A stretch of 64,000 nt of DNA from Brockia lithotrophica (GTDB lineage: Bacteria; Bacillota; Bacilli; Thermicanales; DSM-22653), in contig PEBW01000002.1 in NCBI GenBank assembly GCA_003050565.1, positions 124,001-188,000 on the forward strand. Reading direction: 5' to 3'. The notes under the pieces are model-generated. The model was not told the origin of the DNA. It did not search any database and worked only from the letters and a program-made list of their open reading frames with translations. This document shows positions 33,833 to 47,049 of the stretch, one piece after another (within the stretch, counting starts at the first letter, position 1; each line of letters begins with the position of its first letter). Made by a program: the position numbers and the translations under genes.

Positions 33833-34642
33833 TCACGCCTTTCGGCCGTCCCCGTCCGACCCGCCCGCTTCGCCTTCCCCGCCTTCGCCCCGTTTCTCCG
33901 GGCCGCCCTTGCGTTGGCGGATGAGATCGTCGAGCTTGGCGAGGGCGTCCTTGAGCCCCCCGACGGCATCGATGAGCCCGACCTCTACCGCCTCCGGCCC
34001 GGAGAGGTTCGTCCCCACGTCGGTCGTGAGTTCCCCCGTCTTGAACATGAGTTCCTTGAACTTCTCCGGCGAGATCCGCGAGTGGCGGGTGACGAAGCGC
34101 ACGATGCGCTCGTGCATCTTTTCGATGTACTCGAAGGTCTGGGGAACGCCGATGATGAGGCCGTTGAGCCGGATGGGGTGGATGGTCATCGTCGCCGTCT
34201 CCGCGATGAAGCTGTAGTCCGCGGCGACCGCAATCGGAACGCCGATGCTGTGCCCGCCGCCGAGCACGAGGGCGACGCTTGGCTTGCCGCAGGAGGCGAC
34301 CATCTCGGCGATGGCGAGGCCCGCCTCCACGTCGCCGCCCACCGTATTGAGGAGGATGAGAATCCCCTCGATTTGCGGGTTCTGCCCGGCGGCGACAAAC
34401 TGGGGAAGGAGGTGCTCGTACTTCGTCGTCTTGTTCTGCGGCGGAAGCTGAACGTGTCCTTCAATTTGCCCGATGATCGTCACGGTAAAGATCCTCCCGC
34501 GCGGCTCGGGAACGGAAGGGGTCCCGAACTGGCGAAGCGCTTCGATCACGCTCCGACCCAGTTCGTTCCCTCCCCCCTCGTCGCCGTCTTCCCCGGCTAC
34601 GAAGGGCTGTATCGCTCCTTTGGACCGCACTTCCTTAGCCAC
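33833..34642 (-). CDS. tepA: ClpP-like protease TepA
   Basis: Cytoplasmic serine peptidase of the ClpP/crotonase fold, described in B. subtilis as translocation-enhancing and affecting spore development. The 269-residue product carries [20 protein letters not shown], the nucleophile motif [16 protein letters not shown], the His-containing [15 protein letters not shown], and the downstream FVTRHSRIS block. The GTG at 34642 follows GGAGGT by 8 nt; the frame extends 47 codons further upstream without ribosome binding site or similarity. The C-terminal tail is Gly/Glu-rich. It is the last conserved gene before the accessory region. Confidence 0.93.
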
Positions 34643-34725
34643 CCGCCCTACCTCCCTCAGAGGGACGTTCGACGTTCGTCGAATTCCGGGAAAAACGCAA
34701 AAACCTCGATCCCCGCGGAGCGTCC

Positions 34726-34770
34726 GAAAAACGAAAGGCGCGGGGTCCCGTATCCAGTCTCCCCGCGCCT
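34726..34770 (-). terminator. Terminator upstream of tepA with no intact gene before it
   Basis: A 10-bp stem (AGGCGCGGGG / CCCCGCGCCT) with a 15-nt loop, followed on the minus strand by TTCGTTTTT. It faces away from tepA's start and would end a transcript coming from the right, where only decayed reading frames remain. Confidence 0.7.
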
Positions 34771-35045
34771 CCCGCAGGCCCATACGCGTGCGATCCTTCC
34801 GGCTTTCGCCCGCGCACGCGTTCCGGCCTTCGGAGCGTTTGAGAGTAGCCGATACGTTTGATGAGCATCGCTATGACGCCCCAAGGCAGCTACAAGATAC
34901 TTGTCCAGGTAAAATTCGTACCACCACCATACCGGCCTCAAGATTTACACGATATCCACGTGACATGCCTTGGCACAGACAGCATAGAATGTCTTCGGAT
35001 TTTTTAAAACTTGGTTCCTGAATAGCGCTATTTGGAGTACACGCT
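34771..35045 (-). other. Transition into AT-rich DNA with frame remnants
   Basis: Base composition falls abruptly at about 34,860. One minus-strand frame reads RPVWWWYEFYLDKYLVAALG at 34,840-34,935 and continues across a TAA as KTFYAVCAKACHVDIV, which looks protein-like, but no start, ribosome binding site or complete frame is present. I see no intact gene here. Confidence 0.4.
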
Positions 35046-35252
35046 CTAAGACCAGTACATGTTGAATTCTTTGGCACTGATACGCGGACTCGGAACCGCT
35101 GGCGACCAGGAATAATTTATCTCACTTATTGACCTTGGCGCCGGGTATTTTGGTGGTTTCTGCTTCAAATAGACATACCAGCCACTACCATTGTCCATGG
35201 GAAGGTTTCCTGCATTAAGATCATGATAAGCAAAAATAGTGAAATATTCTAG
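35046..35252 (-). pseudogene. Gene fragment, C-terminal part of an unknown protein
   Basis: An open stretch of 68 codons between an in-frame TAA and a TAG, without a supported start. It reads as ordinary protein (FAYHDLNAGNLPMDNGSGWY, then VYLKQKPPKYPAP and SEINYSWSPAVPSPR). The first ATG would give only 50 residues and has no clear ribosome binding site. It follows the disrupted gene at 35249 almost without a gap, so it may be the displaced end of the same or a neighbouring gene. No family recognised. Confidence 0.4.
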
Positions 35253-35583
35253 TTAGAATCCGAAAAACATTTGTTTAGAATCTTACACGCAATCTTTTCA
35301 TGCTGAATTTCTAGAGCAATTCGCTACTCGAAATCCCGTTCCAGTGTAGCTACGTCCAATTCATCCGCAGTAATCTTTGAGTTACGATATTTGAAATATT
35401 TCTCTTGATCACGGCCCATACCATCCGTCCCCCGATCCTCCAGGTTGACGAAACCGAAGTGCTCGAGGCGGTAGGTCTCAAAACATTCGTCATGCACCAG
35501 GTTGGCCAGATCACCTTTCCAAAAGTAGCAGTGTAGCAGTCATCTCGATGTCACCCATGTACGGACTTGTACCTTTCTAGCAT
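35249..35583 (-). pseudogene. Disrupted small gene (immunity-like), frameshifts plus in-frame TAG
   Basis: The ATG at 35583 directly abuts the stop of the upstream 97-residue gene, but its frame closes after 10 codons. Protein-like sequence continues in a second frame (TSPYMGDIEMTATLL) and then a third frame (CYFWKGDLANLVHDECFETY, RLEHFGFVNLEDRGTDGMG), running through a TAG at 35324 to a second TAG at 35249 (RIALEIQHEKIACKILNKCF). An 8-bp tandem duplication ACTGCTAC at 35524-35539 lies near one frame change. An original product of about 105-110 residues is inferred. No family recognised; size, acidity and operon position would suit an immunity protein. Confidence 0.5.
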
Positions 35584-35877
35584 TTACACAATTTCTTGAG
35601 TCATCTCGCGGAGAACCTCCAGGAATTCACCCGTTTCCTCCCTGGGGTTTGATTTCCGGCTACGGTATGGCTTCAAACCAGCTATGAAAGAGCTTCTCCA
35701 TAAACTCCTGGGAAAATGATCAGTCTCAATCCTATCATTGTAATCCGAAACTGACAGAAGCTTTTTCCAATCACTAAAGATTATAAAATCCCAAAGTCGC
35801 ATATCGTCGTTATCTATGCATCGCAAAAACAATGCCCTCGCTTCTGGTGACGTCTTGCCTTTTACAGCGATGCTCAT
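35584..35877 (-). CDS. Hypothetical 97-residue protein
   Basis: Appears intact and is probably the only unbroken member of a small minus-strand operon. The ATG at 35877 overlaps the stop of the preceding disrupted gene in an ATGA, implying that the upstream frame was once translated through to here. The product begins MSIAVKGKTSPEARALFLR and has a Trp/Asp-rich middle (LWDFIIFSDWKKLL). No signal peptide, membrane segment or known motif was seen. A longer start (GTG at 35892) is possible but not supported. Function unknown. Confidence 0.55.
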   Translation of the reverse strand: MSIAVKGKTSPEARALFLRCIDNDDMRLWDFIIFSDWKKLLSVSDYNDRIETDHFPRSLWRSSFIAGLKPYRSRKSNPREETGEFLEVLREMTQEIV

Positions 35878-36098
35878 TTCATCCCGTTCCACGATTCTAC
35901 TGTGATATTCGGAAGGTGGAGGAATTCATCTTTCCACTCACTCAGAGAAGGGTCGTCGGGAAAGAGAGATTCAAAATGAGAAGCCATGAGCACACCATAC
36001 TTAAGAGCATACTTCCATATGACGTCAATGCCCTTGATCCCGCTGGCGCTCTTATTCCTGTCTCAAATATAAAAATAATCTAGATATTCGGGCATCAT
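35874..36098 (-). pseudogene. Small gene with in-frame TGA at codon 12
   Basis: Starting at the ATG at 36098, the frame reads MMPEYLDYFYI, then TGA at 36065-36063, then DRNKSASGIKGIDVIWKYAL and on through SHFESLFPDDPSLSEWKDEF to a TGA at 35874. The protein character is even on both sides of the internal stop, so a single-base nonsense change in a gene of about 74 residues is the simplest reading. Alternatively, translation begins at a GTG or ATG after the stop. Its first codons overlap the end of the upstream secreted-protein frame and its stop overlaps the next start. Confidence 0.5.
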
Positions 36099-36342
36099 TA
36101 TCGCTTCTCATTGAATAGAGTCTAAAAATCGGAGAGTGGTATGTATTTCCTACCTTAGGTTCAGCATAGCCGTAATGAACGTTTGATACTTTGAACTGTA
36201 AGTTACCTACAGTAACGGGTCCCTAGGCATGACCCGCACTTGGTGATGCCATGGCTTTAGAAACACACAGGAATGATTGAACAACCAAAAAGCTGAATAT
36301 CAACGCCAGGGCAACGACCCGCCTGTACCAATATTGCACCAT
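36052..36342 (-). pseudogene. Secreted protein gene with in-frame TAG at codon 40
   Basis: The ATG at 36342 has an excellent ribosome binding site (GAGGAGGT, 7 nt) and starts a signal peptide: MVQYWYRR, a hydrophobic core ALIFSFLVVQSF, and a likely cleavage near KAMAS. At codon 40 a TAG (36225-36223) interrupts the frame, which then continues with GPVTVGNLQFKVSNVHYGYA and EPKVGNTYHSPIFRLYSM to a TAA at 36052. The continuation resembles small beta-strand extracellular proteins such as DUF4352, but that is a guess. Start signals are intact, so decay looks recent. Confidence 0.55.
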
Positions 36343-36390
36343 TAAGCCTACCTCCTCATTCTAGAATGAAACTAGTCAGGGTGCCAGTGC

Positions 36391-36552
36391 CCAAAGGCGG
36401 ATTGTCCGAGATGTGCTGACGTTGGAAAAGCAGCGGCAAACGGCCCCAAGCACCGACTGCCCCGGTAACGGCACCTCAACTCTTTCCACGACCACGCCGT
36501 CAAATCTCGCCGCCAGGCCGAGAAGGAGAAACAGAACCAGGCCGGGAATGGC
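36391..36552 (+). repeat. Direct repeat, copy 1
   Basis: About 160 bp that recur at 38134-38295 in the same orientation with only three substitutions and one indel seen over roughly 150 bp. Both copies contain, on the minus strand, a frame beginning with a hydrophobic segment (IPG-VLFLLLGLAARFDG) and ending shortly after a shared CRCFSNVSTSRTIR. Weaker similarity continues about 40 bp further right. More GC-rich than its surroundings. Confidence 0.85.
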
Positions 36553-36649
36553 CGGTTTCAACATGCAATGCTGTAGAAAAAGACAATGAATAACGTTTAC
36601 GAGTCATTAACTGGAGATCAACGGATTGTAATTTTCGCCGAATCCGTGT

Positions 36650-36921
36650 CTATAAGTTCTTTCTCAGTGCTCTTTCTTCTTCATCCTCATACCTTCTAAA
36701 CACAATTCGGGAAATATATTCATAATTGAAAAAGACGTTATAGGCAGATAATATGAAGCCTTCCGGATAGAAACATGCGACATAATCAAAGACGTTGTCC
36801 GTGCCCGATCGGGTTACTTTTCTGGCATATATCATCAGTTTTTGGGAAACTCGTTAACTTCAAAACCGTCAAGAAGCACCACCGAGCCTATTGGAAGTAA
36901 CTCTTTCCCGTCGCTCACCAT
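36650..36921 (-). pseudogene. DUF4176-like gene with a frameshift at an A5 run
   Basis: From the ATG at 36921 the frame reads VSDGKELLPIGSVVLLDGFE and stops at a TGA (36837-36835). In the -1 frame it continues MIYARKVTRSGTDNVFDYVA, then FYPEGFILSAYNVFFNYEYI, ending RYEDEEERALRKNL. The two parts joined match the DUF4176 pattern: LPIGSVVLL, an LMI strand, DYVACFYPEG, FFNYEYI and F-RYEDEEE. The break falls in five As (36843-36839); one extra A would restore the frame. DUF4176 genes usually sit with LXG/WXG toxins of type VII secretion systems. It lies 12 bp after the four-helix membrane protein gene. Sequencing error or slippage is possible. Confidence 0.65.
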
Positions 36922-36933
36922 AAACTCACACGC

Positions 36934-37395
36934 TTATTTATCGTCGATGCCCCATAATACCCTTAAAATGTACCTACTACCTTTATACACAACAAACGCC
37001 ATTGCTGGTCCGTACACACCATTAATAAGTGACAGAAGTGCCTTGTCAAACATTACTGGCTCTGTGGGGTCGAACCAAACTGCGAGAGCATATATCATGC
37101 CTAGCAAAGCTGTAGTGCCGAAGAAATATTTTACGAACTTAACTCGCCAATGTTCGGTTTTTTTCCTTTCCTCCTCTCTCCTTAGCTCTGATTTTACAGC
37201 CCTAGAAACGGCAAAAGCAACTACCGGCGTAAGCAACGCGAAAATCAGCGAAAAAACTACGTTATCGGTTTTGGTGCCTTCCAATATATTCTCACTAACA
37301 AGGTTGGCAACAGATACCACCAGAGAAAGAATTGCCACAAAAATAGGATAATAGTCCAGAAACTTAATAACTACTGGCTTAAATTTAGCTGACAA
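36934..37395 (-). CDS. Hypothetical four-helix membrane protein
   Basis: A 153-residue protein with four hydrophobic segments: PIFVAILSLVVSVANLV, VVFSLIFALLTPVVAFAV, YFFGTTALLGMIYALAVWF and LLSLINGVYGPAMAFVVY, with a highly charged cytoplasmic-type stretch (SELRREEERKKTEHW) between helices 2 and 3. The start is a TTG at 37395 preceded by GAGGAG at 9 nt, the best site in reach. It lies between a Gly/Ser-rich toxin-like gene and a DUF4176-like gene on the same strand. In such clusters small multi-helix proteins are often immunity proteins, but here that is inference only. Codon usage is AT-rich, unlike the flanking chromosome. Confidence 0.65.
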   Translation of the reverse strand: MSAKFKPVVIKFLDYYPIFVAILSLVVSVANLVSENILEGTKTDNVVFSLIFALLTPVVAFAVSRAVKSELRREEERKKTEHWRVKFVKYFFGTTALLGMIYALAVWFDPTEPVMFDKALLSLINGVYGPAMAFVVYKGSRYILRVLWGIDDK

Positions 37396-37475
37396 TAATC
37401 AACACTCCTCATTTAACAAAATATAGAAAGAGATACTGCTTAGTTCACAGGTTTATCGGGTTAGTCCTCAGTTCC

Positions 37476-37895
37476 CTACCTTCTGACATCTATCCACAAT
37501 CCCGCACCAATTCCATCATAGTAACTAAACCCGGTTCTGCGTCCTATCGATGCACTGGCGCCAAAGCCGATACCAATGGAACCGTCTACGGTAAACGTCC
37601 TTCCAAAAGCGTTGAAAGTATAGCTCCCACTATATTTCGTGAGAATAGCCTCCCCGCCGATGGCGACACCCCTCTTACTCAATGAGGCGCCCCCACTGGC
37701 ACTCAAAACACTGACCCCGGCGGTATAGTTTTTGCCTATGTATCCGGCTTCTACTGCTGAGGCAGAGAGTCCAGCGCCTATGCTGTATGCTGTCTTACCA
37801 CCACTATTCCCGGATGCCTTCGCAGACTTGCTTGCAGAGTAGCTTCCTGCAGTAACATACCATCCGTTTTGGGAGTGTGCAATAGCTGATGGCAT
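37476..37895 (-). CDS. Gly/Ser/Ala-rich repetitive protein resembling a polymorphic-toxin segment
   Basis: A 139-residue protein with strong translation signals (AAGGAGGGAGC, 7 nt before the ATG at 37895). It is made of alternating Gly/Ser/Ala and hydrophobic residues in beta-like repeats: YSIGAGLSASAVEAGYIG, AGVSVLSASGGASLSKRG, DGSIGIGFGASASIG, with aromatic spacing. No signal peptide or membrane helix. Comparable Gly-rich beta segments occur in large secreted toxins of Firmicutes, between the secretion domain and the toxic tip. Whether this is a complete small protein or a remnant of a larger toxin is unclear. No family assigned. It is first in a row of minus-strand genes. Confidence 0.6.
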   Translation of the reverse strand: MPSAIAHSQNGWYVTAGSYSASKSAKASGNSGGKTAYSIGAGLSASAVEAGYIGKNYTAGVSVLSASGGASLSKRGVAIGGEAILTKYSGSYTFNAFGRTFTVDGSIGIGFGASASIGRRTGFSYYDGIGAGLWIDVRR

Positions 37896-38133
37896 AAAAG
37901 CTCCCTCCTTCCCAAACTTAAGGCTAGCCTGTGAACCCAGCAGTCCCTGTCTCTATCACATTAACCAAGGGCAGAGCCGACTCTTCCCCTGCCCTACTTT
38001 GAATCCATACCACCCCTACCTTCCTTTCCTTCCGCTACCTGCCGATTCCTTATGTAAAGTAACATACAGCAAAAACGCAACGGGTATTTTTTGTAGTTTT
38101 TTGTCGAACTAATGACCGGTCGTGGAGTCACCG

Positions 38134-38295
38134 CCAGAAGCGGATTGTCCGAGATGTGCTGACGTTGGAAAAGCAGCGGCAAACGGCCCCAAGCACAGAC
38201 AGCCCCGGTAACGGCACCTCAACTCTTTCCACGACCACGCCGTCAAATCTCGCCGCCAGGCCGAGAAGGAGAAACAGAACCATGCCGGGAATTGG
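38134..38295 (+). repeat. Direct repeat, copy 2
   Basis: Second copy of the repeat at 36391-36552, same orientation, offset 1743 bp. The two copies bracket the DUF4176-like, membrane-protein and Gly-rich genes, so recombination between them could remove or duplicate that cassette. Confidence 0.85.
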
Positions 38296-38387
38296 CATTT
38301 TCAGCACGCGGCGCCGCGGTGAAAGACGGTAGATAACGTTCTTTCCGGTCGGGACACGCCAAACACCGCAAGGCCTACACGTTCCGC

Positions 38388-38500
38388 CGATCGTATCAAC
38401 CCACTGTAGGAGTTTCGAGGCTCACCGTTCCCAAACCAGGACGAACTACCAGAGAAGATCGATGCTCCGGCTCAAAGCTTTAAGGGCTCTGGTGGACAAT
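38388..38500 (+). repeat. Diverged direct repeat, copy 1
   Basis: About 110 bp similar to 40391-40498 (shared blocks include AGGCTCACCGT, GAGAAGATCGA, GCTCC and CAAAGC). Visual identity is about three quarters. No reading frame is evident in either copy. The rest of 38,300-38,620 contains nothing I recognise. Confidence 0.6.
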
Positions 38501-38624
38501 GTCACCGGACCCCGTAAACAGGGCGTGACGATAACCCCTCCGCTAAAATACGGTCACCACGCCTCAACGGTGGCCGAAGGTCCTGGAGGTTTGCGATCCT
38601 ACTCGAATAGCAAGGATTAGATAG

Positions 38625-38785
38625 AAAGGAAGCCCAACGGTGGCTCAGCCCCCAGGGGTAGCCCCTCCCTCCCTTGGGCTGTATCCTAAGGGCAGGGAAA
38701 AGAAAAAGGGGGATGCGTTGTGGGCTTTCGCTTCTTCCGTCGGATCAAGTTGGCCCCAGGGGTCCACGTAAACTTCAGCAAATCC
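38625..38785 (+). repeat. Duplication joint: 3' remnant of a ydbT-like gene plus 5' end of the DUF4236 gene
   Basis: Similar to 42904-43060. The first 35 bp match the last codons of the intact ydbT-like gene (encoding EAQRWLS) almost exactly; after a shared AGGGGTAGCCCCT and a spacer, the similarity runs into the first codons of the DUF4236 gene. Confidence 0.75.
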
Positions 38786-39754
38786 GGAGCTTCCCTTTCC
38801 CTTGGCTCTCGGGGCGGCAAAATCACCTTCGGTCCTCGAGGCACTCGCATCACCACCGGCATCCCCGGCACCGGCCTTTACCACACCACCGTCCTTCCCA
38901 AGAGAAGAGCGTCCGAAGAAAAAAAGGTTCTCGCCGCCTTTTCTCCCCCCTCATCCGCGGCTTCCGCCCCAACCCTTGGCTTTTTTCAGCGCCTCTTCAC
39001 CCCGCCCCAAGAAATCGCCTTTGTGGAGGGCATGCGAGAGCTGGTCCTCGGCCGCGAAGAAAAGGCCTTGGCCAAGCTGCAAGAGTCCCTCTCCCTCCCC
39101 GATGGAGCCCTCACGGCGGGGCTAGTGGCCCTGCGCCTGAAGGGGGCAAAGGAAGCCCTCCCCTATCTGGAGAGAGCCCTTCAGCTCCAAGAAGGCATCG
39201 GCAAAACCTTTGCGAAATACGGCATCCACCCGAACTTCACCTTGCTCTTCCCCTACGGCATCGCCCTCACCGCCCCTGCCGATCAAAAGGGCCTTCTCCT
39301 GGCCTTGGCGCAGGTCTACGAGGATCTGGGAAAGGTCGCCGAAGCCCTGACCTTCCTCGAACACCTAGCCAACAACCAGCCTCAGGATGAACTGGCAAGG
39401 CTTTGCCTCGTTCATGCGCTCATGCACGGAACACCCGGAGAGGAGGCGTACCGCAGGGTGCTCCAGCTCACGGCTTTCCTCCCGAATGAGACGCCGGTTC
39501 ACACCCTTCTCCTCCTCTACCGGGCCCGGGCTCTTAAAGGTCTCGGACTTCTAGAAGCTGCAAAGGAAACTCTGACCCAGGCTCTCCGGCGAAAGAAAGA
39601 TCGGCCTTCTGAACTGATGAAAGCTCTCCGATATGAAAGAGCCCTTCTTTACGAGGATATGGGAAATCCCCGGCAGGCCCGCAAGGAACTGGAAAAGATC
39701 TATGCGGAAGATCCCGCTTATGCGGACGTGGCTGCCCGCCTAGGGCTTTCGTAA
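38720..39754 (+). CDS. DUF4236 domain plus TPR-like repeat protein
   Basis: A 344-residue fusion. Residues 2-53 form a DUF4236 domain (GFRFFRRIKLAPGVHVNFS, SLSLGSRGGKITFGPRG, ITTGIPGTGLYH), a small beta module of unknown function. After a Pro/Ala linker, residues about 98-340 are helical TPR-like repeats with alternating Leu/Ala pairs (ALPYLERALQLQEG, LAQVYEDLGKVAEALTFLEH, ALRYERALLYEDMGNPRQA). No signal peptide or membrane helix, so it is likely a cytoplasmic scaffold. The GTG at 38720 follows AAAGGGGG by about 8 nt. A broken second copy of its 5' end lies after the PH-domain genes at 42.98 kb, linking it to that cassette. Confidence 0.8.
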   Translation: MGFRFFRRIKLAPGVHVNFSKSGASLSLGSRGGKITFGPRGTRITTGIPGTGLYHTTVLPKRRASEEKKVLAAFSPPSSAASAPTLGFFQRLFTPPQEIAFVEGMRELVLGREEKALAKLQESLSLPDGALTAGLVALRLKGAKEALPYLERALQLQEGIGKTFAKYGIHPNFTLLFPYGIALTAPADQKGLLLALAQVYEDLGKVAEALTFLEHLANNQPQDELARLCLVHALMHGTPGEEAYRRVLQLTAFLPNETPVHTLLLLYRARALKGLGLLEAAKETLTQALRRKKDRPSELMKALRYERALLYEDMGNPRQARKELEKIYAEDPAYADVAARLGLS

Positions 39755-39839
39755 CCCCATTCGTACCCGGTAAGCCATGTCAAGATTGGCCGACGGGAAT
39801 TTGCGCGGCGCTGTAGGCGCTCTCCTCATCCCCTTCCGG

Positions 39840-40150
39840 GATTTAAAAGTAGCGGTTAGCGACCGATGAGCAAAGTCTTTAGGACCTGTTCGGCAAAGGT
39901 TGACGATCTCCCTGCGGAAGAAGTTGCCAAGGTCGACGACAAAAGGAGATGAAGTCGACCGTTCGGAAGCCGACGTTCACCGCCGAAACGACGGTGCCGT
40001 TCATCCAGAGGTCGTAGCACTTCAGCCGCCCGAAGTCGTAAAGCAGCCGAGAGTAGACCGAGGATTGAGGGGCCGCCCTGGCCGAAGAGAGCGACAATCT
40101 CGAAATGCACGCGACGGGCCATCCCCGCCTCCGGGAACTCGACGGTGACC
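39840..40150 (-). pseudogene. Frameshifted remnant of an unknown gene
   Basis: Protein-like segments occur in three minus-strand frames in succession: VEFPEAGMARRVHFEIVALF (from about 40,140), YSRLLYDFGRLKCYDLWMNG then VVSAVNVGFRTVDFISF, and VDLGNFFRREIVNLCRTG. Read together they suggest one gene with two frameshifts. The ORF starting at the ATG at 40122 (88 codons) covers only the first segment and has a GGAGG site. The upstream end abuts the hairpin at 40155. No family recognised. Confidence 0.35.
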
Positions 40151-40154
40151 TCCT

Positions 40155-40173
40155 CCCACCCTTGAAGGGTGGG
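40155..40173 (+). repeat. Hairpin element, copy 1
   Basis: CCCACCC-TTGAA-GGGTGGG followed by GCTTTCCCG. The element with its asymmetric flank recurs in inverse orientation at 40520-40537, on the other side of the tRNA gene. Confidence 0.6.
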
Positions 40174-40201
40174 CTTTCCCGACGGCCTTTCGTAGACGAA
40201 T

Positions 40202-40225
40202 AACCCCGGGTTTTCGCCCGGGGTT
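40202..40225 (-). terminator. Hairpin after tRNA-Ala
   Basis: A 9-bp stem (AACCCCGGG / CCCGGGGTT) with a 6-nt loop, 11 bp beyond the tRNA 3' end on the minus strand. The following U tract is weak. Confidence 0.5.
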
Positions 40226-40236
40226 TGGGTCGATCT

Positions 40237-40311
40237 TGGTGGAGGCGATGGGATTCGAACCCACGACCTCTAGAGTGCGATTCTAGCGCTCTCCCTCTGA
40301 GCTACGCCCCC
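40237..40311 (-). tRNA. tRNA-Ala (anticodon CGC)
   Basis: A complete cloverleaf can be folded: acceptor GGGGGCG with CGCCTCC including the G3-U70 pair diagnostic for alanine, D stem GCTC/GAGC, anticodon stem CTAGA/TCTAG with loop ATCGCAC (anticodon CGC, codon GCG), T arm GTGGG-TTCGAAT-CCCAT, discriminator A and encoded CCA. A consensus promoter precedes it. The gene lies inside the accessory region, where tRNA genes often serve as integration sites, but no duplicate of its 3' end was found nearby. Confidence 0.93.
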
Positions 40312-40345
40312 ACGTCTTTCGTCCTGCGCGCCACGCGCAGAATGT

Positions 40346-40375
40346 AGCATACCATCTCGACGAGAGGATTGTCAA
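40346..40375 (-). promoter_or_regulatory. tRNA-Ala promoter
   Basis: On the minus strand TTGACA (40375-40370), an 18-bp spacer and TATGCT (40351-40346), about 35 bp upstream of the tRNA 5' end. Confidence 0.75.
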
Positions 40376-40390
40376 GGGCACCGGGCGGAA

Positions 40391-40498
40391 CGGATCGGAC
40401 CAACCTGCTGCAGGTCTTTCCAGGCTCACCGTCCCCAAAACAAGATGTACCCCCGGAGAAGATCGACGCTCCGACCCAAAGCATGAAGAGCCCTGGTT
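40391..40498 (+). repeat. Diverged direct repeat, copy 2
   Basis: Partner of 38388-38500. The remaining interval up to the PH-domain gene (40,540-40,780) has AAAGGAGGT at about 40,634 followed by an in-frame open stretch without ATG, perhaps a decayed start. Confidence 0.6.
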
Positions 40499-40519
40499 AC
40501 GCGAGGCTGCCAGGAAAGC

Positions 40520-40537
40520 CCACCCTTTCAAGGGTGG
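40520..40537 (-). repeat. Hairpin element, copy 2 (inverse orientation)
   Basis: CCACCCTT-TC-AAGGGTGG preceded by CAGGAAAGC, the reverse complement of the arrangement at 40155-40173. Confidence 0.6.
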
Positions 40538-40802
40538 AAGGAAGTCACCAAAGCCCCCGCACCCGTAAGTTAAGTAACGAATTGATACAGAAAAAAATGT
40601 CCATACCCCGGCGTCGTACACGGGGCTTCTGAAAGGAGGTCTGCGAAAAAAGATCCTGGACAGCTTGAACTACAGGGGCTACACTTTGGAAGTAGAAACC
40701 GAGTCGGCCGATTCGGTTCCATTAAAACTAAAACGGCAACCGGATCCGGTCAGGCGGTGTGCTCAACATCCATCAAGGAGGATGGGTATTGCAAATTTCG
40801 CC

Positions 40803-41372
40803 ATGAAAGAGACATGGGTGACCTTATTTCGTCCCTTCACCCCCACCCTACCGCGAGGCGTTGACCCACGGGCTTTACAGATGTGGCGGGTTTCCACAGT
40901 CCTGAAAGCGGCCATCGTGGCCCTGATGTTCCTCGGCCTGGACGGCTTGATCTGGGTACTTACACAACAAGATGGTGTCCAAGCACTTTTCTCCTTGAAG
41001 GGAGGATGGAACCTCCTCCCCTTCTGGTCGAAAGGCCTTTTGGTCGGCGAAGGCGTCCTCTTCGGGCTCTGGTTCACCTTCTCCTTTTTCGTCGCCCCGC
41101 CCCTGCGCCAGACCCGCTTCCGCTTCGACCTCCGGGAGAGGGAACTGGAGGTGGAATCGGGGATCTGGACCATGCAGCGACGCCTCATCCCCTATGCCCG
41201 TATCCAGCATGTGGATCTCCACCAAGGGCCTGTGGCCCGCCTCTACGGCCTTTCGGAAGTCGTCGTGGTCACCGCCGCCGGCCACACATCCATCCCCGCC
41301 CTCCCCACCGCCGAAGCGGAACGCCTGCGGGACTGGATTGCAGAAAAGGCAGGGATCAGCGATGTCCCGTGA
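40803..41372 (+). CDS. ydbS: YdbS-like membrane protein with bacterial PH domain
   Basis: A membrane protein of about 190 residues with two hydrophobic segments (AAIVALMFLGLDGLIWVL, and LVGEGVLFGLWFTFSFFVAP) followed by a bPH_2 domain (FRFDLRERELEVESGIWTM, LIPYARIQHVDLHQGPVARLYGL, VVVVTAAGHTSIPALP). This is the YdbS architecture. In B. subtilis the SigW-dependent ydbST genes protect against certain bacteriocins. The start is uncertain: the ATG at 40803 fits the family but its GGAGG is about 20 nt away, the ATG at 40782 touches the GGAGG, and the frame is open to 40665. The stop overlaps the next gene by 11 nt. Confidence 0.82.
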   Translation: MKETWVTLFRPFTPTLPRGVDPRALQMWRVSTVLKAAIVALMFLGLDGLIWVLTQQDGVQALFSLKGGWNLLPFWSKGLLVGEGVLFGLWFTFSFFVAPPLRQTRFRFDLRERELEVESGIWTMQRRLIPYARIQHVDLHQGPVARLYGLSEVVVVTAAGHTSIPALPTAEAERLRDWIAEKAGISDVP

Positions 41373-42939
41373 GGCATCCCCCTCCCCCGTGCAGCTCCCC
41401 ACCCGCGCCCATCCTTCCTACATCGTCATCGCGGCCCTCCGCACCGCGAAGGAAAACTGGGAAACAGCCCTCCCTTTCGTCTTCCTGGCCCTTGTCCTTT
41501 TGAAAAAATACTTTTCCGCCGGCTTGGTAAACACCCTTTTTGGCCTCCTCCTCCTCTTCGGGATCCCCCTAGCCAGCCTGATTCTTCTTGGCTTTGCCCA
41601 CTGGCGAACCCATACTTTCTGGTTGGACGGGACGACCCTGCACGTGCAGTACGGCATCCTTCATCGAGTTCAACAAAAGATCCCCATCCGTCGCATCCAG
41701 TCGGCGGCTACGGAAGCCGATTTTCTCGAAAGGTTGTTTGGAGTAGTACGCCTCCGGTTCTTCCTCGCGGAAAGCGCCGGGCTAGAAGAGGGAGAGATCC
41801 TCATCCGGGCCCTCCCCAAAAAGGAAGCCCAGCGGTGGATGCAGGAGGTCCTTGCCACCCCTTTGGGTCCGCCTGCCCCTCCTTCAAAGGAAGAAGGAAA
41901 GGAAGAAGGCGAGTCAGCCCAGATCCCACCTTCGGTTGAGATTTTTCGCTACAGCATAGACCAAGCCTTTCGGGGGGCCTTACTCTCGCCCCCGATCATT
42001 CAAAGCTTCCTCATCGTGGCTGTGCTCCACGGGAGACTGGCCTCTTTTGAAAACGGGGCTCTTCTCGAATTCCTCCTTCGCCGGATACCCCCGGCCTTGT
42101 CCGACCTCTTCGGCCAACCGCTCATCCGGCTGGTGGTACTCTTCTTTGTCAGTTGGGTAATTGCCGTAGCGGGAAAATGGATCTACCTCTTACGCTTTCG
42201 TTTTTACCGCACACCCGAGGCCCTCGTCTTAGAAGAAGGGTGGATTTCTCTGCGGACTAAAGCATTCTCCCTTGAGCGGATTCAGGCCGTAGAACTGCGC
42301 CAATCTCCCCTGGAAAAGCTGGCGGGGATGGCCTCCTTACGGCTTTACGTGGCGGGCAAAGGCGAAACCCACCAGGGGACCATCCCTTTCTTGCTCGTGG
42401 ATCGCCTTCCCGCCCTCATGAAGGAACTTTTGCCCCAAGTCCCCGACATCCTCATGGAGGTGCACCCGCTTCCCGCCAGCGCTCGCCGTCGTTACTGGAC
42501 CCGCTTTCTCCGCCTCACTTTTCTCTTGGTTTTCGCCATCCCGGCAATAGTGGCTTTAGTAGCGTTTTCCTACCACCTTCCCTTGCCCGTCCATCCCTTT
42601 GACACCAACTCTTACCCCATTGGCTTTTTGTGGCGGCCGGCCCCCCTTGGGGGCACTCTTTTGTTTCTCATCCTCCTGGGCATCATCTGGGGAGAATGGG
42701 CCTACCGTCACGGCGGATACCTACAGAGCCCCCAGGGCTATGTTTTGAGTGTTTGCCTTTTCACTCATCGAAAGGTCTTCGTGCCTCGTCGCCGATTGCA
42801 AGAAATGCACCTGTACCAAACCCCCTGGCAAAGGCTGGCCGGTCTCGCCAACATCGAACTCCTTTGGTTAGGAGATTCGATCCGCCTTTTCCACCTTCCC
42901 TTGGAGGAAGCCCAACGGTGGCTCAGCTCCCAGGGGTAG
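41362..42939 (+). CDS. ydbT: YdbT-like membrane protein with repeated bacterial PH domains
   Basis: A 525-residue protein (YdbT is 493) with three bPH_2 domains, each following a pair of hydrophobic helices: about 20-170 (THTFWLDGTTLHVQYGILH, IPIRRIQSAATEADFLERL), 215-380 (RTPEALVLEEGWISLRTKAF, LERIQAVELRQSPLEKL) and 405-520 (YLQSPQGYVLSVCLFTHRK, VPRRRLQEMHLYQTPWQRL). An insert rich in Glu/Pro/Ser separates the first two. The ATG at 41362 lies inside the end of the ydbS-like gene, preceded by CAGGGA, so the two are cotranslated. Its 3' end is duplicated at 38625. Confidence 0.86.
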   Translation: MSREASPSPVQLPTRAHPSYIVIAALRTAKENWETALPFVFLALVLLKKYFSAGLVNTLFGLLLLFGIPLASLILLGFAHWRTHTFWLDGTTLHVQYGILHRVQQKIPIRRIQSAATEADFLERLFGVVRLRFFLAESAGLEEGEILIRALPKKEAQRWMQEVLATPLGPPAPPSKEEGKEEGESAQIPPSVEIFRYSIDQAFRGALLSPPIIQSFLIVAVLHGRLASFENGALLEFLLRRIPPALSDLFGQPLIRLVVLFFVSWVIAVAGKWIYLLRFRFYRTPEALVLEEGWISLRTKAFSLERIQAVELRQSPLEKLAGMASLRLYVAGKGETHQGTIPFLLVDRLPALMKELLPQVPDILMEVHPLPASARRRYWTRFLRLTFLLVFAIPAIVALVAFSYHLPLPVHPFDTNSYPIGFLWRPAPLGGTLLFLILLGIIWGEWAYRHGGYLQSPQGYVLSVCLFTHRKVFVPRRRLQEMHLYQTPWQRLAGLANIELLWLGDSIRLFHLPLEEAQRWLSSQG

Positions 42940-43060
42940 CCCCTCTCTCCTCGGTGCCGTATTCCTAAAAGGCAGGAAAAAAAGGCGATGCGTCGTAAGC
43001 TTTCGCTTCTTCCGTCGTGTGAAGTCGGCAGCTGAGGTCCACGTAAACGTCCAAAAAACA
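42904..43060 (+). repeat. Duplication joint: 3' end of ydbT plus degraded start of a DUF4236 gene
   Basis: Partner of 38625-38785. After the ydbT stop comes the same AGGGGTAGCCCCT block and then a decayed version of the DUF4236 start (TTTCGCTTCTTCCGTCG shared) that quickly runs into stops. From here to 43,160 I see nothing else. Confidence 0.75.
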
Positions 43061-43161
43061 AAAGGCCAAGGAGAAGGCTTCCAGGCTTTAGTAAGAGTTT
43101 AACCCAGGCAGCGCAGGTGGCCAGTACAGGAAGCATGTGCGGCACCGGATCGTTTGGGCCT

Positions 43162-43254
43162 TTAATTTCCTTCGGCCACGGCGAGCATCATATCCGTGTC
43201 GTCCGTCCACTCTCCGGCCTTAAGCCACCCGTCCACCATCTCTCGGTTGATATT
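43162..43254 (-). pseudogene. Fragment of an ADP-ribosylglycohydrolase-like gene
   Basis: A 30-codon segment ending in TAA reads NREMVDGWLKAGEWTDDTD then MMLAVAEGN. The GEWTDDT-M-LA pattern is the metal-binding signature of DraG/ADP-ribosylglycohydrolase proteins. No start or remaining domain is present. Confidence 0.4.
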
Positions 43255-43490
43255 TTTTGCGCAGCTCTTTGAGGTACGAGTTGGAACTGTAAATCTGTGA
43301 TGCGGGATATTGGTATTTGCTTAGTGACTATCTTTTTATGAAATTTACTCCGGTATGTTACCCGCGACCCGTCCTTAATGAGCTTGGCAACTGTATCTTT
43401 TATTCGAGTTTCGTGTATCGTTTTGTCAAAGATACATATGGCTACATAGTTTTCGAACTCAAGAAAACGTTGGATTCTTTCAAGCGCGTA
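43188..43490 (-). other. Open frame continuing past the stop of the 43491 gene
   Basis: In the same frame as the upstream gene, sequence after its TAA stays open for 100 codons and looks protein-like (LERIQRFLEFENYVAICIFD, KTIHETRIKDTVAKLIKDG, YRSKFHKKIVTKQIP) but has no start codon. It overlaps the ADP-ribosylglycohydrolase-like fragment in another frame. It may be the second half of a gene split by a nonsense mutation, or chance. Confidence 0.35.
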
Positions 43491-43955
43491 TTACATAGCT
43501 AATCTTTCTGGATCTTCAGGATTGGCATATTTTTCAAAATGAAGATGCTTATCTATAACCACGATGAACGAGACGCCTGAGTGTTTATAAGGTATGCTTA
43601 GAAACAGCTCACGGACTTGTTGACGTTGCCTTTCGTGTTTTCTCCAATAGCCTTTCCCTCCATCGAGTTCTTTCGCTTTTATTTCCTCTCCCCAGCCCAG
43701 CATTTGCGAAATCAACCCAGTAATTTGTAAATTTTCTAAATATCGACGAATTTCTTCGTAGACAAGGTGTAGAGAGATGTGCTCAGTCTCTTCTTCTTTT
43801 CCGGGCCCTCGGTCGATATAGAGCTCTACCGTAGCACGGTTTTTGGTTATTCTGTGACCTTCTCCCACTCTCTTGAAAGGGGGAGCTTCCCCGGCGGCTC
43901 CTCGTAATCCTTCTTCGTCTTTACAAGGCACGTCCAAGGGAACCTTGATATCCAC
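43491..43955 (-). CDS. Hypothetical 154-residue protein
   Basis: Soluble protein rich in Glu, Lys and Arg with no signal peptide or membrane helix. It begins MDIKVPLDVPCKDEEG and contains VELYIDRGPGKEEETEHISL and LQITGLISQMLGWGEEIKAK. No family recognised. The GTG at 43955 follows AGGAGAG by about 8 nt and lies 12 bp after the stop of the YdcF-family gene, so the two are probably cotranscribed. A TAA ends it, but the frame continues to look coding for another 100 codons, so it could be the front part of a longer gene. Confidence 0.55.
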   Translation of the reverse strand: MDIKVPLDVPCKDEEGLRGAAGEAPPFKRVGEGHRITKNRATVELYIDRGPGKEEETEHISLHLVYEEIRRYLENLQITGLISQMLGWGEEIKAKELDGGKGYWRKHERQRQQVRELFLSIPYKHSGVSFIVVIDKHLHFEKYANPEDPERLAM

Positions 43956-43967
43956 GGCCTTACTCTC

Positions 43968-44582
43968 CTACTCAAGCTTTTCCCACCAGCACCTGATTAT
44001 GCTGATCCCGTTGGCCACCGCTTCCCTCAGCACCAAGGGAGGCCTTACTAAGACCGTCTCCTTGACACCCGCTCCGGTGGCCTCTATACCCATACAGCGG
44101 GCTTCCCGCAGGGCCCTCCAGAGATGGAAGTCGTGGGTGACGATGATGGCCGAATTCCAGCCGTGTTCTTCCATAATAGCCTTGGCCCCCCTCAAATTCT
44201 CCCGGGTATTCCTAGAAGTAGTTTCCGCATGCACGGCCTCTGCAGGAATGCCCCAAGCAAGGAGCAACTCCTTTGCCGCCGTGCCTTCAGGAAGGGGACT
44301 GAATTCGCCCACACCTCCGGTAGTTATGATGGCTTTGGCATAGCCTTCTTCGTAAAGCCTTGCAGCTAGAAAAAGGCGCTCCCGCAGAGCTGGACTGGGT
44401 CCTTGGGGCCAGACAGCCGCACCCAGTACAACAATTACATCTGCCGGCTGAGGTTCTGCCCTCCTACCAACCCATTCCGTGCAAGCATAGAGGCTCAGCA
44501 GGAGCGGGACGACAGCCATCCCAGAAAAAAAGATCCAAAACAGGGACTTTTTGGCTCTAGATCTAAATCTGTTGCTAAACAT
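43968..44582 (-). CDS. YdcF/SanA-family (DUF218) membrane-anchored protein
   Basis: DUF218 protein of 204 residues with one N-terminal transmembrane anchor (LFWIFFSGMAVVPLLLSLYA) and an extracytoplasmic alpha/beta domain. Family motifs are clear: ADVIVVLGAAVWPQGPSPAL, ERLFLAARLYEEGYA, IITTGGVGE, AETTSRNTRENL, and IIVTHDFHLWRAL. Relatives (SanA, ElyC, YdcF) act at the cell envelope, but the reaction is not established. The ATG at 44582 overlaps the end of a small upstream membrane frame by 8 nt, with AAGGAG directly before it. Confidence 0.85.
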   Translation of the reverse strand: MFSNRFRSRAKKSLFWIFFSGMAVVPLLLSLYACTEWVGRRAEPQPADVIVVLGAAVWPQGPSPALRERLFLAARLYEEGYAKAIITTGGVGEFSPLPEGTAAKELLLAWGIPAEAVHAETTSRNTRENLRGAKAIMEEHGWNSAIIVTHDFHLWRALREARCMGIEATGAGVKETVLVRPPLVLREAVANGISIIRCWWEKLE

Positions 44583-44739
44583 CTCCTTCTTCCCCCGAGA
44601 AGTACCCCTCTGGCAGGGGATACCTCTTTATTCTCCCGTATGCATAACCCCAAAAGAGCAGGAAAAGGGATTCCGCCACCACCGATAGGCCCAAAATCAA
44701 GGAGGACTTGACGATATCCTTTAGGAGCAGAAAGCTCAA
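44575..44739 (-). CDS. Small membrane protein or 3' fragment
   Basis: A 54-codon frame from a TTG encodes one hydrophobic helix (SSLILGLSVVAESLFLLFWG) and a basic C-terminal tail, and its stop overlaps the YdcF-family start, which suggests it is or was translated. No ribosome binding site is evident and the frame is open upstream into the disrupted MFS gene in a different frame, so it is probably the 3' end of a truncated gene at the island border. Confidence 0.35.
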   Translation of the reverse strand: MSFLLLKDIVKSSLILGLSVVAESLFLLFWGYAYGRIKRYPLPEGYFSGEEGDV

Positions 44740-44747
44740 CCGGCGCG

Positions 44748-45248
44748 CTAAACGAACAAAACGCTTTTTAGGGTAAGTCCGCAGCTTGGTGCTCCTCCAA
44801 CGTCCGCACGCGATCGTCCACGCGAAACGCCCGCGTGGACCCGAGGGGCGACGACCATCCCCACGGCCTGCGCGGCGATCGTCGCCACCATCACCCGCGC
44901 GCGATTCCGAAGGGGCATGCATTCGGCGATGTAGCTGCTGCTCGTGGGAAAGTCCATCCCGATCGCCGACCCGAGGAGGCCGATTTCCGTCGCCGCAAGC
45001 GCCAGGTCTTGACGAACGAGGGGGATCGCCATCCCCAGCATGAAGACGGAAAATCCGTCCAAAAACGTGCCGCCGGAAGCGAGGTCCCAGGCGATCAGGT
45101 GCGCCCGGCGAAAAAGAGCCCGATCGAGGAGGGAGAGGAGGGTTGCGTGATCCGGGTGGACGTGCACGCCCGGGGCGAGTGCCGTCCACAAAGGGGGAGA
45201 AATCCCGTCCGAAACGTCCGCGGAAGAAGAAAGCTTTTCGTCGCGCAT
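44748..45248 (-). pseudogene. MFS transporter gene with internal deletion and truncated 3' end
   Basis: The ATG at 45248 has AGGAG at 6 nt. The frame encodes an N-terminal region and first helix of a sugar-type MFS carrier (LASGGTFLDGFSVFMLGMAI, LALAATEIGLLGSAIG) and then jumps directly to GMDFPTSSSYIAECMPLRNR, a motif normally found after helix 4. About 60-80 residues (helices 2-4) are missing without loss of frame. After VATIAAQAVGMVVA the similarity stops and the frame runs out, so helices beyond 5-6 are absent. It cannot encode a working transporter. Confidence 0.7.
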
Positions 45249-45326
45249 GTCGCACTCCTGCACGCGCCGCTTCGCATCCGTAATCCGGTACCTGCGGACA
45301 ATCAGAAAACCAATTTCCCGAAAAGA

Positions 45327-46016
45327 TCATCCGAGCCAAAGCGAGAGGCGGCCAAACTGACCGGTCATGAGGAGAAGCCCCGTGAGGACGAGGAGGGCAC
45401 CCCCGATGCGCGCGACGAGGGGCGTGTACGCGGCGAGCTTTGTGACAAAGGAGAGGAAGAAGCCGAAGAGGACGAACGGTCCGGCAAAGCCGAGGCTAAA
45501 GGCGAGCATGAGGGCGGTGGCCTGCGCCGGCTGCGTAGCCGCAAGGGCAAAGATCCCCCCGAGGATCGGGCTCACGCACGGCGTCCACCCCGCTCCGAAG
45601 AGGAGCCCCACGAGGTAGCTCCGGACGTACGCGCCCAAGGTCGAACCGCTCTTGCCCAGGCGGAATTGGAACGTACGCTCGAGAAATTCGACGTGGACGA
45701 CGCCCATGACGACGAGCCCCATGAGGAGGATGAGCGCTCCGCCGATGCGTGCTATGAGATCCTGGTAGGCGAAAAACAGTTGCCCGAGGAAGGACGCCCC
45801 AAAGCCCAAGAGAAAGTAGATCGTAGAAAGGCCCAAGGCAAAGAGCAAAGAATGGAGGACGACGCGGGCGCGCAGGCGAGCCCCCCTCGCGTTGTGCACC
45901 TCCCGCGCAGAGACGCCGGTCACGTAGGCGAGAAAGGAAGGGTACAGGGGGAAGACGCACGGCGAGAAAAACGCCACCAAACCCGACACAAAGGCAATCC
46001 CCAACGAGATGTTCAC
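45327..46016 (-). CDS. ccdA: Cytochrome c biogenesis protein CcdA
   Basis: Six-helix membrane protein that carries reducing equivalents from cytoplasmic thioredoxin to extracytoplasmic thiol-disulfide proteins for cytochrome c maturation and, in Bacillus, spore cortex synthesis. The two redox cysteines are in FFSPCVFPLYPSF (C20) and GWTPCVSPILG (about C142), the DsbD/CcdA signature. The 229-residue length is near the 235 of B. subtilis. The GTG at 46016 is placed directly before the first helix; its ribosome binding site is only a G-rich run about 10 nt upstream. No partner resA/resB genes are seen here. Confidence 0.92.
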   Translation of the reverse strand: MNISLGIAFVSGLVAFFSPCVFPLYPSFLAYVTGVSAREVHNARGARLRARVVLHSLLFALGLSTIYFLLGFGASFLGQLFFAYQDLIARIGGALILLMGLVVMGVVHVEFLERTFQFRLGKSGSTLGAYVRSYLVGLLFGAGWTPCVSPILGGIFALAATQPAQATALMLAFSLGFAGPFVLFGFFLSFVTKLAAYTPLVARIGGALLVLTGLLLMTGQFGRLSLWLG

Positions 46017-46221
46017 CGTCTTGTGCCCCCCACAGCGCTCCGGTGGTATCCCGAAAACTCGTGCTCCGCAAGGTCGGAAAGCGGTACACCTGCCGCGCCC
46101 CCGCGACTCGGGTCCAGGTAGTACGGCCCGTCTTACCCAGAGGAGGCGGGGAACTCCCGATCCGTTGGGCGAATCGTGGTCGGGTGCGTCTACGAGGGCG
46201 GAGGCGACCTGGTCGCGGTAT

Positions 46222-46259
46222 AAAAAAAGCCGCACGGCGGCAACCGGTACTCGTGCGGC
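46222..46259 (-). terminator. Rho-independent terminator
   Basis: An 8-bp stem (GCCGCACG / CGTGCGGC) followed on the minus strand by seven Ts, 13 bp after the stop of the holin-like gene. The 205 bp from here to the ccdA start contain no gene I can support. Confidence 0.8.
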
Positions 46260-46272
46260 GTGCCGAAGTCCC

Positions 46273-46533
46273 TCACTTCCGCTTCGCGAGCACGAAGAAA
46301 AAGAGTGCGAGGTTCACGGCGACCAACGCGGCGAGAAAGGCGGCGAGATACGGCGGGAGATACGTCTCCAAAAGGAGATAGGCCGCTAAAAGGAGGAACA
46401 CGACCCCGGTGAGCCCCGCGAAGAGGGCGAGTCCGAGGAAGAGGATGGTCTCCGCGAGGCGGACGAGCTCCCGCCGTCCGACGTCCGACGCGGACGTGAG
46501 GAAGAGCGTGAAGAGCGCCCGGAGGATGTTCAT
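46273..46533 (-). CDS. Phage-holin-III/YqjE-like membrane protein
   Basis: An 86-residue protein with two transmembrane helices (ETILFLGLALFAGLTGVVFLL and YLAAFLAALVAVNLALFFFVL) after an N-terminal amphipathic segment, and a basic C-terminal KRK. This is the layout of the holin superfamily III / YqjE family. The ATG at 46533 follows GGGAAAGG closely. It lies 24 bp after a YqjD-like gene, the same pairing as yqjD-yqjE of enterobacteria, and ends in a strong terminator. Despite the family name, lysis function is not implied. Confidence 0.7.
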   Translation of the reverse strand: MNILRALFTLFLTSASDVGRRELVRLAETILFLGLALFAGLTGVVFLLLAAYLLLETYLPPYLAAFLAALVAVNLALFFFVLAKRK

Positions 46534-46557
46534 GCCTTTCCCTCGTCTCTTTGCCGT

Positions 46558-46914
46558 CTAGTTTCCGCGCTTCCACATCTTCCCGAAGAGACATCCGAGG
46601 AGGAAAACGGCGAGGAATCCTCCCAGGGCGTACAGGTACGTCCGAACCGTCCGTTCCTCGCCTCCTCCCTCGCCCGCCAAAGACTTCCCCTTGTCCTGCC
46701 ACCACGAGACGAGGTCTTCCCGCCGCCGGCGAAACTCCTCGCCGAGCCTTTCCCCCAGGGAGCGCAAGAAGCTGCGGACTTCTTCTTCCGCCCGCTCCGC
46801 TTGCGCCTGACCCATGCCCTTGAGCGCGCCGGTGAGCGCCTGCACATCCTGCCGGAGGAGCTCCAGTTGCCCGCGGAGCTCGTCCATCTCCGCCCCAAGG
46901 TCGCGTTCCCCCAT
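46558..46914 (-). CDS. Coiled-coil membrane-anchored protein (YqjD/DUF883-like)
   Basis: A 118-residue protein with a long N-terminal coiled coil (about residues 5-70, LRGQLELLRQDVQALTGAL), a DLVSWWQDKGKS hinge, and one C-terminal transmembrane helix (YLYALGGFLAVFLLGCLFG) followed by KMWKRGN. This topology, with a soluble helical body and a C-terminal anchor, resembles ElaB/YqjD proteins, which bind ribosomes at the membrane in stationary-phase E. coli; similarity is in architecture rather than in motifs. The ATG at 46914 follows GGAGGGGAAGG. Confidence 0.65.
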   Translation of the reverse strand: MGERDLGAEMDELRGQLELLRQDVQALTGALKGMGQAQAERAEEEVRSFLRSLGERLGEEFRRRREDLVSWWQDKGKSLAGEGGGEERTVRTYLYALGGFLAVFLLGCLFGKMWKRGN

Positions 46915-47049
46915 GTCCTTCCCCTCCCTTTGGGAAACTCTCTCCCGATCCGCAAGGCGCCGGCACGGGCGACTAAGCCCCGCTCCGCCTTCAGCCTACC
47001 ACACCGGAGGTTCGGCTTCTACCGCCCACGTGCGCCGACGACACGAATT

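Follow-up and report, generated by a model that had tools for sequence, protein, structure and literature searches.

How did the end of a ydbT-like gene come to be joined to the start of a DUF4236/TPR gene at two places in one bacterial locus, with a different partner intact at each? The window that we analysed is a stretch of 64,000 nucleotides of Brockia lithotrophica DNA. According to the original prediction, which was made from the letters alone, an ancestral unit ydbS-ydbT-DUF4236/TPR had been duplicated in tandem, after which each copy lost different genes. Here, D denotes the DUF4236/TPR gene, S and T denote ydbS and ydbT, and U1 and U2 are the two copies of a repeat 5' of ydbS. In a search within 13 kb, positions 38627-38776 aligned with 42905-43051 (152 columns, 80%, E 1.6e-32). 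The similarity has abrupt limits at 38627/42905 and 38776/43051, and a gapped alignment can stretch it to about 43088. The repeat contains the final 35 bp of ydbT, TAG stop included, a spacer of 55-60 bp and the first ~57 bp of D. Both junctions were found where they had been placed: at 38,625, a 35-bp ydbT tail stands before an intact D (D1, an ORF of 344 aa), and at 42,904, an intact ydbT stands before a D remnant (D2) that is unrecognisable past 43051. The parts of the two copies and their anchors are as follows, with G001 being the one same-genus genome compared:

33908-34825, minus strand: ClpP-like serine protease, the left anchor; an open frame, 86% amino-acid identity to the protein on G001 contig C10
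38389-38493, plus strand: U1, the copy-1 version of the sequence 5' of ydbS; 78% to 40393-40497, no third genomic copy
38494-38626, plus strand: scar lacking ydbS and most of ydbT; 133 bp, compared with 2.4 kb in copy 2
38627-38661, plus strand: remnant of the last ydbT codons with the TAG stop; 1 mismatch in 35 to 42905-42939
38662-38719, plus strand: ydbT-D spacer of copy 1, holding the D ribosome-binding region; aligned with 42940-42994
38720-39754, plus strand: D1, intact DUF4236/TPR gene, 344 aa; PF14020 (E 3.4e-20), plus TPR
40237-40311, minus strand: tRNA-Ala (CGC), anchor upstream of ydbS; found by ARAGORN and Rfam, conserved in G001
40393-40497, plus strand: U2, the copy-2 version of the sequence 5' of ydbS; similar to U1
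40782-41372, plus strand: ydbS-like gene, intact, bPH_2; PF03703 (E 4.7e-20), 89% to G001
41362-42939, plus strand: ydbT-like gene, intact, three bPH_2 stretches; PF03703 (E 1.1e-34), 84% to G001
42940-42994, plus strand: ydbT-D spacer of copy 2; aligned with the copy-1 spacer
42995-43051, plus strand: D2, 5' remnant of D; the GTG start is now GTA and the remaining gene is gone
44771-45296, minus strand: MFS transporter remnant, the right anchor; residues 10-119 and 509-533 of the G001 protein match, the middle is missing

The DUF4236 match of D1 scored 72.7 bits against a Pfam gathering score of 27. Upstream of the junctions lies a second pair of repeats, U1 and U2, which match in direct orientation over 105 bp (78%, E 2e-18), U2 being part of the tRNA-ydbS interval. 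The repeat had been noticed before (at 38388/40391) and proposed to mark the upstream ends of the duplicated unit; it is real, but it is internal to the unit and has not proved to be its end. The U pair and the junction pair are collinear and in the same orientation at one locus. U1 precedes the ydbT tail by 133 bp, with the order and strand of U2-ydbS-ydbT and ~2.3 kb absent between. Shuffled local alignment and tblastn gave no significant traces of ydbS or ydbT in 38494-38626, and no significant D remnants past 43051 beyond the blocks described above. When all 12 contigs of the genome (1.69 Mb) were searched with 38380-39800, nothing but this locus matched, with hits to the intact copy, U2 and the remnant of D, and a search with 34000-47000 found no third copy of U or of the junction block. 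Among known RNA families, Rfam identified nothing in the U block besides tRNA. Positions 38341-38388 had no match to the tRNA region, and 39755-40201 had no native match and none to the ancestral flanks. From these comparisons, the outer endpoints of the duplicated unit appear to be erased and unrecognisable, and the join point between the copies may be erased as well.

The ancestral order can be read from relatives. On a MAG contig, JAHHQG010000032.1 (Clostridiales bacterium isolate RBS10-35; L023), intact ydbS, ydbT and D are adjacent on one strand, and the encoded proteins share 64%, 48% and 75-77% amino-acid identity, respectively, with those of the window. An intact three-gene operon is thus present in a relative, and its order, together with the single-copy layout of G001, supports the proposal that ydbS-ydbT-DUF4236/TPR was the ancestral unit. 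On G001 C10, read in window orientation, a ClpP-like gene is followed by tRNA-Ala, ydbS, ydbT and an IS607-type tnpA, and contig C8 starts inside a tnpB-like gene that is followed by a broken D (matching window 39029-39081 and 39395-39747) and an MFS transporter, the neighbour expected for D in copy 2. Both contigs end in IS607-type elements, an assignment made by eye from the proteins (serine recombinase tnpA, tnpB), and from gene order and element ends we infer that C10 and C8 join across an IS607-type gap. In the window, the ClpP-like gene and the MFS remnant bracket the whole region; the transporter is intact (533 aa) in G001, with only its two ends left in the window. The order on C10 and C8, combined with these anchors on either side in the window, gives ClpP-tRNA-S-T-D-MFS as the shared ancestral order. 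Nine homologues of D were taken from other families of the phylum, and none has ydbST in the 6.4-10 kb examined around it; among the clades sampled, the S-T-D linkage is therefore confined to this one. IS607-type elements lie at both ends of L022 (G001 C10) and at 1-1000 of L019, and one of the tnpA copies has been shortened internally. The G001 D, broken beside an IS607-type element, has an additional internal deletion.

The danger named for the original prediction was that the three genes would be adjacent in no genome and that the similarity would be limited to a short mobile repeat. The junction block is indeed short, about 150 bp. However, it spans the boundary between two genes, coding for the last codons of one and the first of the other, its E value is 1.6e-32, it is present at two genomic places only, and its junction is a real gene order in L023. 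The whole-genome search and the intact L023 operon refute a mobile-repeat origin of the block, and we assign next to no probability to a mobile repeat or a chance resemblance.

The distance between the ClpP-like gene and the tRNA, about 160 bp in G001 compared with about 5.4 kb in the window, bears on which copy is new. The extra DNA holds copy 1, which is thus the gained copy, acquired in the lineage of the window. The copy-1 ydbT tail has 1 mismatch to the window's own ydbT, compared with about 5 for the G001 ydbT, and neither U1 nor U2, which are 78% alike, aligns significantly with the corresponding G001 interval. A tail closer to the resident ydbT, and U copies that resemble each other but not G001, place the duplication after the split from G001. 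In the simplest mechanism, a local direct (tandem) duplication within ClpP-tRNA-ydbS-ydbT-D-MFS would have spanned at least the region from 5' of ydbS through D. ydbS and ydbT would have been removed from copy 1 by a ~2.3 kb deletion ending within the last ydbT codons, and copy 2 would have lost all of D save the first ~57 bases, changing the gene order from S-T-D to D-S-T. One duplication and two deletions would explain the whole layout, and because different genes survive in each copy, recombination could not collapse the duplication without gene loss. We consider it likely that the S-T-D unit was duplicated in tandem and then underwent complementary loss. The part of the original prediction in which the two copies lost different genes is borne out by the ydbT tail in copy 1 and the D start in copy 2. 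As for the duplication itself, the direct duplicate blocks stand, as two collinear pairs, whereas the tandem arrangement is the simplest reading; like the single event and the order in which genes were lost, it is inferred. Weighing against this reading, no genome with two complete S-T-D copies turned up in a comparison that covered one congener, the outer endpoints cannot be recognised, and the C10-C8 order in G001 spans an IS607-type gap.

It is also conceivable, though unlikely, that the ydbT tail and D alone were copied upstream, ectopically or with the assistance of a transposon, with the original D lost later and U1 and U2 produced by a separate small duplication. Such a history would fit with the local repeat just upstream of copy 1 (36391-36597/38134-38340, 89%) and with the short IS-like inverted ends that flank the tRNA, but no mobile-element ends were seen bordering copy 1 itself. 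Moreover, a copy of D only should lack sequence 5' of ydbS, so the presence of U1 in copy 1 indicates that more than D was copied; its position 133 bp before the ydbT remnant, its order and its strand are exactly those expected of a tandem copy that suffered a deletion. Copying of the tail and D alone also requires two duplication events instead of one.

More improbable still is that copy 1 is a xenologous segment transferred from another strain or species and not the resident locus, an explanation that draws on the synonymous distances of D. Between the window and L023, dS was 0.50 (0.40-0.61) for D (window 38720-39754 against L023:2453-3475), a half to a third of the values for ydbS (0.98, 0.73-1.43) and ydbT (1.67, 1.25-2.23) in the same genome pair. 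Relative to G001, the 3' third of D was further away (0.36) than ydbS (0.20) and ydbT (0.26), but the confidence intervals for D overlap in the shared 3' part. The synonymous divergence of D therefore follows a different pattern from that of S and T, and we counted this against duplication and loss. The pattern could come from slow synonymous change in D or from exchange of D between lineages. By contrast, the copy-1 ydbT tail is of the resident type: it differs at one position from the window's ydbT and at about five from that of G001, and L023 is unalignable there. The anomaly in D distances thus leaves standing the derivation of copy 1 from the resident locus.

The surviving genes look constrained, whereas the D2 remnant does not. 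Over 57 ungapped bases of the D start, with the L023 D as outgroup, D2 has nine private changes compared with one in D1. The dN/dS ratio of D1 against the L023 D is 0.30, and S and T give 0.32-0.33 when compared with G001. We give even odds to a fuller reading, in which the locus is a natural example, at nucleotide level, of duplication with complementary loss re-ordering a bacterial operon, D survives in this species only through the duplication, and the congener lost its original D beside an IS607-type insertion.

Tandem duplication-random loss (TDRL) is the standard model of gene-order change for mitochondrial genomes. Bacterial gene order is also thought to change partly through duplication followed by complementary loss, although such events usually leave no lasting fossils. 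At this locus, both scars are preserved and a relative retains the ancestral arrangement, which makes the duplication-loss model checkable base by base. Like TDRL, the locus has an apparent tandem copy, complementary loss, remnants of the lost genes at the predicted places and a new order; unlike the mitochondrial cases, it lies on a bacterial chromosome, the unit is roughly 3-4 kb and the duplication intermediate is deduced. For bacteria, the SNAP hypothesis holds that after a duplication different genes are inactivated in each copy, which locks the duplication in and rearranges gene order (PMC7055797). Complementary inactivation after duplication, lock-in and a rearranged order are likewise seen at this locus. 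SNAP, however, concerns selected duplications of many genes, whereas three genes are involved here, nothing indicates that the duplication was selected, and not one of the three is known to be essential (G001 has no intact D). Direct copies, the ancestral order in relatives without the duplication, and complementary losses with remnants are all present, and the locus is a small, well-preserved instance of an event type that is already known as TDRL and, in bacteria, SNAP.

What the re-ordered genes do can be approached through their homologues. In B. subtilis, YdbST is part of the SigW regulon and confers protection from amylocyclicin (PMC8144471), and YdbS/YdbT-like proteins go with leaderless bacteriocins (PMC10311245). 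The pair in the window has the domain make-up of YdbST, with one bPH_2 domain in YdbS and several in YdbT, and, as in B. subtilis and the bacteriocin clusters, the PH-domain genes are adjacent, the short one preceding the long one. By this analogy, the products are probably a YdbST-type membrane pair that protects against bacteriocins or envelope stress. The window differs from those systems in that no bacteriocin gene was recognised adjacent and in the linkage of ydbST with DUF4236/TPR within this clade. The open literature has next to nothing on DUF4236, and its link with ydbST in one clade is a lead on the function of an uncharacterised gene family. The AlphaFold2 model of D (built from two sequences, mean pLDDT 73.7) has a confident helical TPR part and a low-confidence, beta-rich DUF4236 N-terminus; D may serve as a scaffold for protein binding. 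That D and ydbST are no longer neighbours suggests that D can do without co-transcription with them.

Several smaller features were seen around the two copies. Among the short ORFs between the ClpP-like gene and the tRNA is one at 36650-36835 (minus strand) with a DUF4176 match (E 2.4e-15), and 34915-35406 resembles a second genome site, C5:128752-129554, at about 80%. The repeat 36391-36597/38134-38340, which ends shortly before copy 1, is direct and 207 bp long, and this region may readily undergo local duplication. An inverted pair of ~50 bp (40144-40194/40498-40549, 85%) flanks tRNA-Ala, has similar copies elsewhere in the genome (C1, C5 and C8), and resembles solo ends of IS200/IS605-like elements.
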